Positions 6,964-18,150 of a stretch of 46,654 bases of DNA are shown piece by piece. The stretch comes from Falsirhodobacter xinxiangensis (lineage in GTDB: Bacteria; Pseudomonadota; Alphaproteobacteria; Rhodobacterales; Rhodobacteraceae). Location of the stretch: positions 1 through 46,654 of the forward strand of contig NZ_SMYN01000020.1 of NCBI RefSeq assembly GCF_004959935.1. Reading direction: 5' to 3'. Position 1 is the stretch's first letter. Each line of letters begins with the position of its first letter. Below the pieces are notes generated by a model. That model was not told where the DNA came from. It was given only the letters and a program-made list of their open reading frames with translations, and ran no database searches. The position numbers were made by a program, and so were the translations under genes.

Positions 6964-8061
6964 TTACCAGTCCAGCCCGCTTAGGGTTTGCATGGCATCC
7001 TGCGCCAGAACGCGCCGCTTCGCCCCTTTGGTATAGATAGCTGTGGTCGTCGCCTTGGTGTGCGCCAAAACCGACATGATCTGGTGATCGGAGCATCCCA
7101 TCTCGGCGAGCAGCCCGGCGAGGGCCTTGCGGATGCCATGCGATGACCGTTCGGTCAGCCCAGCCGCATCGCACCAACGGCGCACGCGCTGGCGCAGGCT
7201 CTCCACGCTCCCGAACGGCTGGCCCTTCTCGCTGAGCAGGTAGGCATCGCCCTGCACGGTCATCGCCCGTGAGGCATTAAACAGGGGCGGGGGCAGGGGC
7301 ACGGATACCGGGGCCGATCCTTTCTTGCCGGGCTGCCATTCCAGCCATGTAATGCCGTCGCGCTGGACCTCGTGCTTTCGTCCAAGCAGCATGGCATCGC
7401 CGATCCGGCATCCGGTCATCATCAGCAGCGTCAGCCAGAGATGCGCCGTCGTTCCCGGCGGATGCACCGCGCGGAAAGCCTTGAGGTCTTCGGACGTCCA
7501 CGGCTTCGCGCCGCCCTTGCTGATGTGTATCTTGCGAACGCCCTTTGCCGGGTTTGTCTCCATGTCGCCGCGCTCGATGGCGAAATCATACATCGCACGC
7601 ACCGCCTTCATGGTATTGTCGGCTTCGGCCGGGGTGCGGACCATGTGATCGCGGACCTTCACGAACGCGGCCTGCGGCATGTCGATATCCAGATCGCCGT
7701 AGGGCGTGCCGTCCCGGTCGGGAATGGCGCACATGCGGGTGAGCTGGCTGCGGCGCTGCTTGAGGGTGCTGGACGATTTCAGCCCCGCATCGACCTCAGC
7801 CGACAGGTGGGCGAGGTATTCGTTGACCAGCCACCGAAGCGACATCTCTGGCACATGCACGGCCGCATCGCGCGCCCATCGGTTGCCGGCGCGCGCCGCC
7901 CAGTAGTGTTCGAGGAAGTCGGGGTGATCCGGACCCACCGGGATTGTCGTCTTGACGCGCGGCGCGCCCTCCTTGCGGACGCGGTGCCGCAGGTTTCCGG
8001 AGGGCAGGCGTTCCGTGAACCAGCCGTCGAACTTGTGCTTCACGCCGATCAGCCCGCCCAC
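6964..8061 (-). CDS. int: Phage tyrosine integrase
   Basis: Site-specific tyrosine recombinase, about 365 residues, that would integrate and help excise the prophage. The catalytic domain shows the first arginine in TGCRIGD (about residue 235), the H-x-x-R box in SSHGIRK, the later histidine in LAHTKATT and the nucleophilic tyrosine in AIYTKG. The N-terminal half (about residues 85-190) is the SAM-like core-binding domain. It begins with GTG; either the one at 8061 or the one at 8043 (VKHKFDGW) is possible. It overlaps the upstream small gene by 13 bp. It ends the leftward early operon and marks the left edge of the prophage. Confidence 0.93.
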   Translation of the reverse strand: MGGLIGVKHKFDGWFTERLPSGNLRHRVRKEGAPRVKTTIPVGPDHPDFLEHYWAARAGNRWARDAAVHVPEMSLRWLVNEYLAHLSAEVDAGLKSSSTLKQRRSQLTRMCAIPDRDGTPYGDLDIDMPQAAFVKVRDHMVRTPAEADNTMKAVRAMYDFAIERGDMETNPAKGVRKIHISKGGAKPWTSEDLKAFRAVHPPGTTAHLWLTLLMMTGCRIGDAMLLGRKHEVQRDGITWLEWQPGKKGSAPVSVPLPPPLFNASRAMTVQGDAYLLSEKGQPFGSVESLRQRVRRWCDAAGLTERSSHGIRKALAGLLAEMGCSDHQIMSVLAHTKATTTAIYTKGAKRRVLAQDAMQTLSGLDW

Positions 8062-16267: not shown

Positions 16268-16296
16268 AAGATGCACGTCATGCATCAACACGTCAA
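16268..16296 (-). promoter_or_regulatory. Putative leftward early promoter PL
   Basis: On the minus strand: -35 TTGACG (16296-16291), 17-base spacer, -10 CATCTT (16273-16268). PR has the same design (TTGACG, 17, CATCAT), and in both a TGCA-N5-TGCA operator lies across the spacer and -10. It points at the leftward operon starting at 16209. Confidence 0.6.
16272..16284. promoter_or_regulatory. Operator OL1, TGCACGTCATGCA
   Basis: One of five TGCA-N5-TGCA sites in the immunity region. It overlaps the spacer and -10 of PL, so binding would block leftward transcription. Confidence 0.65.
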
Positions 16297-16306
16297 GCCC
16301 CCATGA

Positions 16307-16319
16307 TGCACAATGTGCA
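16307..16319. promoter_or_regulatory. Operator OL2, TGCACAATGTGCA
   Basis: Second left operator, centred 35 bp from OL1 and upstream of the PL -35. It also borders a possible rightward promoter (TTGATG at 16326, TATCCT 18 bases on) for the two small plus-strand genes. Confidence 0.65.
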
Positions 16320-16490
16320 ACATCGTTGATGTGCGAGAATCGCCCGTGCTATCCTCCCCCTGCCAGTGCCGTGCTGGCGGCAACAAAAAGCCCCGTGCGC
16401 GGTGGGGTGAAAGCATCGCTTTCTTCTCCCCTCGTCCGCGCTACCTCCGTCGCAAGCCCCCTGCCGCTCTAACCGCTCAGGAGGAGCGAC
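16320..16490 (+). promoter_or_regulatory. Leader region of the small plus-strand genes, with possible promoter and hairpins
   Basis: No gene seen. TTGATG (16326-16331), an 18-base spacer and TATCCT form a plausible promoter. Farther on, GAAAGC-ATC-GCTTTC flanked by GGGG and CCCC (about 16404-16432) can form a hairpin in the leader. AGGAGG stands just before the ATG at 16491. Confidence 0.35.
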
Positions 16491-16975: not shown

Positions 16976-17356
16976 TCATTCGCACATGAACGCAGGCTTG
17001 CGGAAGCCGGTGATAGTATAGCTTTTCTGGGCGTTGGGTCGTCCAAAGAGAGTATAAACGCAATCGCTCTCAATAACTTGGCCGCCCGTTGTTGTTGCGG
17101 TTGCATAGCTCCCGTAGCTGGAAACATTTGTCGTAACTGGCGTTACATAAGAGCTATTTTGCGACCATTGGAACGCACGACGGCCGTCAGGGAGGTCGAG
17201 GGCGTTCATAGGTGGCCCGTAGTCCAGGACGACCTCAGTTACGTCCTTTCCGACATACCCTTGCATGAGTTGAGAGGCGCAGCCGGACATCAAAAAGAGG
17301 CCGCTGGTGACTACTAGAAGGTGTTTTACGGCATATTTTCGACAAGTTGAAATCAT
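16976..17356 (-). CDS. Lipoprotein, likely lysogenic-conversion (moron) gene
   Basis: 126 residues from the ATG at 17356. The N-terminus (KYAVKHLLVVTSGLFLMSGCAS) is a type II signal with lipobox MSGC, so it should be lipid-anchored. The mature part has a YVGKDVTEVVLDYGPP segment, a Ser/Thr/Tyr-rich middle and DCVYTLF...KPAFMCE with two cysteines. It has its own terminator and base composition poorer in GC than the neighbours. It lies directly downstream of cI on the same strand and may be read with it in the lysogen. A LexA-box-like site is 73 bp upstream. Function unknown; surface change or exclusion is possible. Confidence 0.65.
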   Translation of the reverse strand: MISTCRKYAVKHLLVVTSGLFLMSGCASQLMQGYVGKDVTEVVLDYGPPMNALDLPDGRRAFQWSQNSSYVTPVTTNVSSYGSYATATTTGGQVIESDCVYTLFGRPNAQKSYTITGFRKPAFMCE

Positions 17357-17398: not shown

Positions 17399-17428
17399 TT
17401 GACCGGAATCGCTTTTCGCCGCTAACGT
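17399..17428 (+). promoter_or_regulatory. Putative promoter for the plus-strand ORF antisense to cI
   Basis: TTGACC (17399-17404), an 18-base spacer and TAACGT (17423-17428). The same TAACGT is found at the late promoter candidate near 24070. The LexA-type box follows immediately, over the expected start of transcription. Confidence 0.4.
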
Positions 17429-17443
17429 GAACAGAACGAGAAC
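17429..17443. promoter_or_regulatory. LexA-box match GAAC-N7-GAAC
   Basis: GAACAGAACGAGAAC fits the alphaproteobacterial SOS box (GTTC/GAAC-N7-repeat) exactly. It lies between a promoter-like sequence and the Shine-Dalgarno AAAGGAG (17444-17450) of the small plus-strand ORF. An eight-base match with a fixed gap is expected about once by chance in a window this size, so the weight comes from its position. Confidence 0.45.
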
Positions 17444-17456
17444 AAAGGAGTGCCAC

Positions 17457-17672
17457 GTGACTGCCGCGGAAGAACAGTTCAGGACGGAAGTTGCCTCCCT
17501 CAACGACCATCAGCTTGATCTTTTCCTGACGCTGTTTTCGGATTTTCTTCGCGAGCAAGTTCAAGAAGGTCGAACACCTTCCCCTGCTTCGACTCGGGAA
17601 CCTGACGAAACGCTGCGAGAAGCGCGGCCTCGACGGGCGAGCGGTCTTCGGCGAACAGGTCGGAAAGGGTGA
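17457..17672 (+). CDS. Candidate SOS-controlled small gene, antisense to the 3' end of cI
   Basis: 71 residues from a GTG with AAAGGAG six bases upstream, a promoter-like sequence and a LexA-box match just before it. The first 35 residues (TAAEEQFRTEVASLNDHQ, then LFLTLFSDFLREQ) look like a genuine amphipathic helical protein; the rest is arginine/proline-rich and may be only the antisense of cI. It overlaps the last 173 bp of cI on the opposite strand, so its transcription would run against cI. Possible role: LexA-regulated antirepressor or interference with cI expression. This is a hypothesis; the cI gene itself is the surer of the two. Confidence 0.4.
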   Translation: MTAAEEQFRTEVASLNDHQLDLFLTLFSDFLREQVQEGRTPSPASTREPDETLREARPRRASGLRRTGRKG

Positions 17673-17826
17673 CGCCCAGCACGTCCGCGCACCTCTGATA
17701 GGTGGCAAGCTTGGCCGTTGAGGCCATCTTTTCGGCGCGCTGAATAGTGGATTGATCCACGCCGACCATCTCGGCGAGGTCACGCTGGTTTAGGCCTTTG
17801 GCCTCTCTGATCCGGCGTAAGTTCAT
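17500..17826 (-). CDS. CI-like XRE-family repressor, short form
   Basis: 108 residues from the ATG at 17826 (MNLRRIREAKGLNQRDLAEMVGVDQSTIQRAEK), an XRE/HTH_3 domain over residues 2-60. The rest is a short helical tail (EAALLAAFRQVPESKQGKVFDLLELAREE); there is no LexA-like S24 peptidase domain, so RecA-stimulated self-cleavage is not expected. A start at 17851 is in frame but would lie inside operator OR3. Divergent from cro with three TGCA-N5-TGCA operators between. Predicted main repressor of PL and PR. Confidence 0.85.
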   Translation of the reverse strand: MNLRRIREAKGLNQRDLAEMVGVDQSTIQRAEKMASTAKLATYQRCADVLGVTLSDLFAEDRSPVEAALLAAFRQVPESKQGKVFDLLELAREENPKTASGKDQADGR

Positions 17827-17836
17827 AGCCAAATCA

Positions 17837-17849
17837 TGCACGTGATGCA
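17837..17849. promoter_or_regulatory. Operator OR3, TGCACGTGATGCA
   Basis: The operator nearest cI, 10 bp upstream of its start codon, where binding would block cI transcription, as Cro does at OR3 in lambda. Confidence 0.65.
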
Positions 17850-17862
17850 TGGTTCTGGCAAA

Positions 17863-17875
17863 TGCACCACGTGCA
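17863..17875. promoter_or_regulatory. Operator OR2, TGCACCACGTGCA
   Basis: Middle right operator, centred 26 bp from OR3 and 34 bp from OR1, just upstream of the PR -35 element. Confidence 0.65.
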
Positions 17876-17884
17876 ATTCTACCA

Positions 17885-17913
17885 TTGACGGTCAGATGCA
17901 TATCGTGCATCAT
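17885..17913 (+). promoter_or_regulatory. Putative rightward early promoter PR
   Basis: -35 TTGACG (17885-17890), 17-base spacer, -10 CATCAT (17908-17913); OR1 covers the spacer and -10. Same plan as PL. Transcription would start at about 17919-17921, on or next to the ATG at 17920. Confidence 0.6.
17897..17909. promoter_or_regulatory. Operator OR1, TGCATATCGTGCA
   Basis: Fifth TGCA-N5-TGCA site. It lies between -35 and -10 of PR, so binding would shut off rightward early transcription. Confidence 0.65.
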
Positions 17914-17919
17914 ATGGCT

Positions 17920-18150
17920 ATGTCAAACCTCTCCGATTATCTCGCCAAGAACGGCATTAAGCAGCGCGCATTCGCCTCCGAGATCGGGGTCGATCCCAGC
18001 ATCGTGTCTCGGTTGGCGCGCAATGAAATGACGCCCAGCCTTCAACTTGCTGCCGATATCGAGCGCGCGACGCGCGGCGCGGTGAAAGCAATAGGCTGGG
18101 TCAAAAAGGGCCGGGCAGGCACGGCAGCGGTGCAGCGGCGGGCGGTGTGA
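17920..18150 (+). CDS. Cro-like regulator
   Basis: 76 residues with an HTH of the Cro/YdaS type: LSDYLAKNGIKQRAFASEIGVDPSIVSRLARNEMTPSLQLAADIERATRGAV. First gene read from PR and divergent from cI, hence the Cro role. The ATG at 17920 is chosen because PR should start there, giving an essentially leaderless message; the ATG at 17914 is also in frame, and no Shine-Dalgarno is visible before either. The open frame reaching back to 17836 crosses the operators and is not used. Confidence 0.8.
   Translation: MSNLSDYLAKNGIKQRAFASEIGVDPSIVSRLARNEMTPSLQLAADIERATRGAVKAIGWVKKGRAGTAAVQRRAV

Follow-up and report, generated by a model that had tools for sequence, protein, structure and literature searches.

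A small gene antisense to the end of a short prophage repressor gene as a probable LexA-controlled antirepressor

How does a prophage learn of damage to its host's DNA when its repressor carries no self-cleavage domain? Some temperate phages rely on short, non-self-cleaving repressors, and their sensing of DNA damage is often unexplained. The question is raised here by a prophage of Falsirhodobacter xinxiangensis (integrase at 6964-8061, large terminase, portal and major head genes, all recognized by family profiles) that lies in the window, by which we mean the whole stretch of DNA analyzed, bases 1-46654 of one contig of a host genome of 3.97 Mb.

The repressor locus

An earlier note on this DNA had described a 108-residue CI repressor without an S24 peptidase domain and, facing it, a promoter, a perfect LexA box, a ribosome binding site and a small frame that starts at GTG 17457 and overlaps the repressor gene by 173 bp. 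Both descriptions are borne out, as every element of the layout lies where the note had placed it, and no Peptidase_S24 was found in CI in Pfam at E<=0.1, where the families matched are almost only of the HTH type. The parts of the locus are as follows.

17399-17404, plus strand: -35 element TTGACC, read from the sequence; the same promoter is present in L033, L035 and the matches of the blind search described below
17423-17428, plus strand: -10 element TAACGT, immediately 5' of the LexA box, read from the sequence; also in L033, L035 and the blind-search matches
17429-17443, plus strand: LexA box GAACAGAACGAGAAC, spanning the predicted transcription start; a box type also present at host recA and lexA
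17444-17450, plus strand: ribosome binding site AAAGGAG, six bases 5' of GTG 17457, read from the sequence
17457-17672, plus strand: small gene, the proposed antirepressor, 71 codons with a GTG start; an open frame under coding selection
17500-17826, minus strand: cI, a 108-aa repressor with an HTH domain and a C-terminal helical hairpin, without S24 peptidase domain (Pfam, AlphaFold2 model)
17914-18150, plus strand: Cro-like HTH gene, divergent from cI (HTH_3 5.4e-7, ORF 17836-18150)
17836-17850, 17862-17876 and 17896-17910, no strand: three operator-like palindromes in the cI-cro interval, two exact and one with one mismatch
16271-16320, no strand: two further operator-like palindromes, 5' of the left arm (palindrome scan)

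The small gene and the 3' end of cI overlap in antisense orientation over 17500-17672, and 18 bases separate its -35 and -10 elements; this promoter with its TTGACC is absent from the list given by a generic sigma-70 promoter scan of the window. The 71-aa product belongs to no Pfam or PHROG family at E<=0.1. The Cro-like gene starts at 17914 or 17920, depending on the reading. Operator-like palindromes at up to two mismatches number eight in the window against 6.6 expected, and since this total is near expectation only their clustering is suggestive. The palindrome scan found none at the promoter of the small gene; control of this promoter by a CI operator was therefore set aside, and LexA looks like the main repressor of the small gene in the window. 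Between cI and the left arm lies a small lipoprotein-like gene (16976-17356, minus strand; LMSGC is lipobox-like by eye) that matches phrog_3716, of unknown function there, at E 1.7e-5; no gene is so named in the corresponding region of phage Pthi1.

A small-gene family facing short repressors

Searched directly, the 71-aa protein returned only the copy of the same phage from IMG/VR, and from 394 genomes of the family its own copy and one match at E 3.1e-4, which was rejected as chance-like, as it contains a stop and has no cI-like ORF nearby. A nucleotide search of a phage collection gave no match. As direct searches were unproductive, relatives were gathered through cI and the regions after their stops were inspected (139 repressor loci collected, 110 of them non-redundant, four left out for too little downstream sequence). 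The start of the small ORF lies on the opposite strand, 25-127 bases past the cI stop, from where the frame runs into cI; the distance between this start and that stop is 1 mod 3 in all 29 aligned type I and all six type II members, the ORFs of both types having been chosen by shared motif. Type I members share an ungapped N-terminal block, roughly E-E-x-F-x3-L-x2-M/L-S/T-D-x-Q-L-x2-F/L-L/I-x2-L, and type II members, which accompany a different repressor type, the motif M-x3-Y-x-R-Q-L-L-A-A-L. Identity of type I members to the window row in the alignment is 7-30%, so the relatedness of the window protein to the family rests on profile, position and phase. Recurring ATACG...CGTATA palindromes lie about 70-100 bases before the small start in the type II loci L037, L042, L047, L048, L113 and L117; by eye they are possible CI operators, and CI may thus also control the small gene in type II.

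In a leave-one-out HMM test over the 110 loci, 30 best matches fell below E 0.01. Twenty-nine of these lie at the antisense place over the end of cI (L049, L051 and L204 among them kept a close relative in the training set) and one lies elsewhere (L066, E 0.0062); the window phage, as L024, was found at E=2.8e-5, and the aligned members L033 and L046 were not recovered. At the level of the order, 14 of 390 genomes have a cI relative at E<=1e-15, and the antisense small ORF is present in all 14 (11 type I, three type II), with a perfect box after the cI stop in seven. The earlier note had proposed conservation in relatives that keep cI as a check: the frame is kept as a protein throughout these genomes, and half of them have the perfect box. 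A small-protein profile built from 23 of the 29 type I rows, and hence covering type I, gave 11 matches at E<=1.8e-5 in the 390 genomes, every one antisense over a cI-like ORF, and ten weaker matches (9.3e-4 to 0.019), whose loci contain no cI-like ORF. The strong matches, except that in G460, are profile members or their copies, so this result shows specificity rather than discovery. One cI relative, L018, has neither box nor small ORF. HTH-protein records of E. coli phage PhiR29_2, Sinorhizobium, two Paraburkholderia, Serratia, Acinetobacter and Brevibacillus have no box near the stop and no small-protein profile match better than E 0.81. The 29 type I members have no credible match in Pfam, PHROGs or NCBIfam, the best for any single member being an unrelated dioxygenase at E 0.0037.

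The first alternative to an antirepressor is a small protein that is induced in the SOS response and serves some other role, be it in the host SOS response, replication or lysis, with its place beside cI serving co-inheritance. The protein is without a known family, CI binding is something that we infer, and the LexA box is missing in part of the family, all of which this reading accommodates. It would not explain why all strong profile matches lie antisense over cI-like ORFs or why the type of the small protein, I or II, tracks that of the repressor; moreover, an S24-less CI needs an inactivator, and the phage Pyei1, which has an S24 repressor, is without the module. We therefore regard another role as unlikely.

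Selection on the small gene acts on its codons. Across 26 sequences (three near-copies dropped from 29), its frame has a mean pairwise BLOSUM of 0.94 and no stops, and the other five frames, including that of cI itself, reach at most -0.02 with stops in 15 to 26 of the 26. The motif residues are more conserved at codon positions 1 and 2 than at position 3. Outside cI, six close pairs taken together (a seventh, identical pair was left out, and L042 stands in two pairs) have 43 synonymous and 54 nonsynonymous changes, which gives a dN/dS of about 0.36 (p=1.2e-6). A chance ORF was set aside on the frame-specific BLOSUM score without stops, and an artefact of cI conservation on the lead of the small frame over the other five and on selection that extends outside cI. 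By computation, the small genes form a genuine family that codes for protein and keeps a fixed antisense place at short repressors.

These results bear on the claim of the earlier note that the locus would give a small protein or an antisense RNA: codon-level selection favors the protein, and an antisense effect may be added to it. That the functional product is instead a cis-antisense RNA, or transcription that collides with that of cI and lowers its mRNA, the open frame being secondary, seems to us slightly less probable still than a protein of another role. The 173-bp overlap with the 3' end of cI and the fixed antisense place in relatives are what such a mechanism would use, but an RNA would not need the strong amino-acid-level selection found here, and CI already made would persist. 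The OOP RNA of lambdoid phages likewise runs against the 3' end of a regulator gene, cII, and is non-coding (PMC7067206), whereas the frame in the window is under coding selection both inside and outside the overlap.

LexA boxes at the small genes

The window contains seven copies of the perfect pattern GAACN7GAAC, where shuffles predict 0.95, and none of the reversed control pattern, for which the expectation is 1.28. The chance level of about one box given in the earlier note is thus right as an expectation and wrong as a count. The six further boxes, at 637, 9561, 14543, 19311, 26274 and 44662, bring the total above the shuffle level, and the host genome has 156 perfect matches against 89 for the reversed control. 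One box by itself is weak evidence; the arrangement, which the note had singled out as what stands out, is conserved and exceeds chance. A perfect box lies within 150 bp after the stop in 21 of 66 repressors of 75-150 aa, where the remaining sequence of these loci predicts 0.75; the count becomes 22/67 once L023, with a box at +86, is included. Longer repressors have such a box in one of 24 cases (0.16 expected) and repressors of less than 75 aa in none of 16, L023 being placed in that class, and the reversed control box was found in 2/66, 0/24 and 1/16 of the three classes, respectively. In the single longer case, L069, the repressor-like ORF encodes 247 aa, and the perfect box follows its stop by 40 bases.

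The promoter and box also lead back to the layout when the repressor is disregarded. TTGAC-N19-TAAYGT-GAACN7GAAC stands in the same register in the window, L033 and L035, and a scan of viral contigs for TTGACN{18,20}TAAYGT plus the box, made without regard to repressors, gave 13 stretches. In ten of these, a small ORF and the end of a short repressor-like ORF face each other, a layout that L265, L268 and L272 do not have. In the ten, the small ORF starts 12-17 bases after the box and the repressor-like ORF ends 37-130 bases after it. They amount to eight distinct modules, namely the window phage, L033, L035 and five new ones (L261, L266, L267/L273, L269/L271 and L270). Four of the five new repressors match HTH_3 in Pfam, and that of L269, with no Pfam match, is called repressor-like by eye. 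The antisense phase agrees with the family in four of the five new modules. The exception is L267/L273, whose small ORF has phase 2 mod 3 and has the words PLDF and RSDL in common with its own repressor. The control scan with the box halves reversed gave one stretch, too near the end of its locus for the layout to be judged. At the level of sequence, the layout is shared by many viruses related to this one and by some that differ from it considerably.

The box in the window promoter is, as a sequence, of the type apparently used by the host for lexA and recA: one GAACN7GAAC lies upstream of recA and two overlapping ones at lexA. The pattern is present at lexA in all ten further hosts (11/11 lexA genes examined with the own host). 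This box differs from the LexA box of enterobacteria. Within 110 bp upstream of the small-gene start, a perfect box is present in 16/29 type I and 5/6 type II members, 21/35 in all when the near-copies L022/L034 and L040/L041 are included, and is missing from 13/29 and 1/6, 14/35 in all; L031 and L109 among the 13 box-less type I members have a one-mismatch box. The hosts with a box at lexA include G593, G625, G597, G598 and G460, which carry members or near-copies without one, and G499, which carries L109. Five box-less members are thereby placed in such hosts (L107/G625, L112/G597, L115/G598, L114/G460 and L109/G499), so LexA is not the sole input of the family, and the box-less small genes likely respond to another inducing input. 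The type I gene is kept without a perfect box in L107, L108, L112, L114 and L115 (G625, G593, G597, G460 and G598, respectively).

Five Paracoccus phages have been induced with mitomycin C, and Pyei1 alone among them has a CI with an S24 domain, according to Decewicz and co-workers (PMC6536676). In the four S24-less phages, a perfect box follows the CI stop (by 68 bases in Pthi1, 80 in Pkon1, 63 in Pben1 and 55 in Psul1), and all four have an antisense small ORF in the family phase. In Pyei1, the 20 kb covered contain no box downstream of CI, and no profile match falls below E 4. The small ORF of Pkon1 matches the profile at E 0.029, and those of Pben1 and Psul1, with no profile match, were assigned by place alone. 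None of the four records annotates the small ORF, and in Pben1 the box and the small-ORF start lie inside annotated gene p19. In sequence terms this pattern is what the antirepressor hypothesis predicts; the induction was published without a test of it, and the words antirepressor and LexA are absent from the accessible text of that paper. Together with the boxes at host recA and lexA, the four mitomycin-induced S24-less phages lend support to the LexA input suggested by the earlier note. A chance box in the window, with a regulator other than LexA in control of the gene, is very improbable, for although 14 of 35 members have no perfect box and six of the seven boxes in the window lie elsewhere, the box, -10, -35 and start keep nearly the same register in L033, L035 and the five blind-found modules, and the position of the box after cI is far above chance.

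Proposed mechanism and its relation to known systems

Read together, the sequence evidence makes it likely, in our judgment, that these small genes, which are nested in the repressor gene on its other strand, encode LexA-controlled antirepressors of protein families not yet described and would serve as a DNA-damage fuse. We infer that LexA binds, that the gene is induced and that its product binds CI, as well as the surface involved and any effect of antisense transcription, in the following order of events. In a lysogen, the small gene would be silenced by host LexA bound to the box at 17429-17443, and the short CI, having no self-cleaving S24 domain, would hold the lytic genes off. Upon DNA damage, active RecA would bring about self-cleavage of LexA and the promoter TTGACC-N18-TAACGT would fire. 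The 71-aa helical hairpin would then bind CI, most likely at the C-terminal hairpin expected to mediate CI oligomerization, and take it off its operators, whereupon cro and the lytic genes would be expressed. Since the small gene is read across the last 173 bp of cI from the other strand, its transcription may in addition reduce the expression of cI.

Predicted structures suggest how the small protein might act. The AlphaFold2 model of CI shows an HTH domain and, at the C-terminal end, a hairpin of helices 64-75 and 78-94, and that of the small protein is a helical hairpin (residues 3-13 and 17-37) with a low-confidence tail and a mean pLDDT of 95-98 over residues 1-30. In Foldseek, the top match of the CI model is the SinR chain 1b0n_A of the SinR/SinI complex, a weak one (E 2e-3, with no match at E<=0.001), and the small-protein model has no match at E<=10. 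SinR likewise combines an HTH domain with a C-terminal helical hairpin and has a small antagonist, SinI; the pair differs in not being a phage switch, in not being known to be under LexA, and in that the small proteins here have no SinI match at E<=1, the SinI family being absent from the 19 Pfam families matched at that threshold by any of the 29 members. These hairpin models and the SinR fold, considered together with the SinI heterodimer, make a SinI-like attack our preferred mechanism. In Bacillus subtilis, SinI breaks SinR multimers through a heterodimer (PMC6123443).

It may be that the small protein is a mimic of the CI C-terminal hairpin, a hypothesis only, for which the evidence is weak. 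In hhalign, the small protein and the CI hairpin give a 25-column ungapped match in register (probability 1.1, P=0.048). The best offset of the small-protein profile along CI is the hairpin, with a score of 6.42, but the reversed profile scores higher (7.57), and permutations give p=0.22 when residue classes are preserved and 0.039 when they are full. Cognate pairs do not stand out from non-cognate ones among 23 type I modules (p=0.27). Over 38 modules, from which near-copies and odd N-termini (L034, L041, L114, L028 and L046) were dropped, p=0.019 with an N-terminal control of 0.41, and a diverse set of 12 modules gives 0.11. The striking single case is L261, with a score of 42 and rank 2 of 38.

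LexA-controlled antirepressors of non-cleaved repressors include GfoA, GfhA and GftA of the Salmonella Gifsy prophages, Tum of phage 186 and AntC of N15 (PMC3121763). The likeness lies in a short non-cleaved repressor that is, or here would be, inactivated by a small protein from a LexA-repressed gene, and CI has no S24 self-cleavage domain, as is the case for the repressors of this class. According to Lemire and co-workers in the same source, the Gifsy antirepressor genes lie apart from the immunity region and share a LexA-regulated operon of their own with a dinI homologue, whereas the window gene lies at the repressor and overlaps the 3' end of cI antisense. Small phage proteins also oppose a repressor without cleavage in the TF-smORF modules of polylysogens (PMC10432266) and in AimX (PMC11323111); the former are driven by a neighboring transcription factor and the latter by arbitrium. 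Structure entries 9sf2 and 9iaq, AimX by title, are among the matches listed for the CI fold search. The 2023 study of Silpe and co-workers (PMC10432266) was restricted to phages whose repressors cleave themselves and left non-proteolytic repressors out. In the open-access literature searched, we came across no account of an antirepressor that is under LexA control and encoded antisense to cI.

For temperate phages with short repressors, the module provides a testable answer to how DNA damage is sensed, and a simple search rule, a LexA box together with a small ORF antisense to the 3' end of the repressor gene. It brings to light small-protein families missed in the annotated records examined, and an antisense pair with coding selection on the small gene. 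More broadly, and as a tentative view that we hold with less confidence than the antirepressor itself, alphaproteobacterial prophages without self-cleaving repressors may possess a recurrent, undescribed SOS wiring in which repressor and antirepressor occupy the two strands of the same DNA. The origin or reshuffling of the layout would have involved several unrelated types of repressor and of small protein, some of the small proteins, L261 above all, being copy-like of their own CI hairpin and poisoning it in a SinI-like manner, and the box-less ones being under another input. If this is true, lock and key would be inherited together and would coevolve as one overlapping unit.
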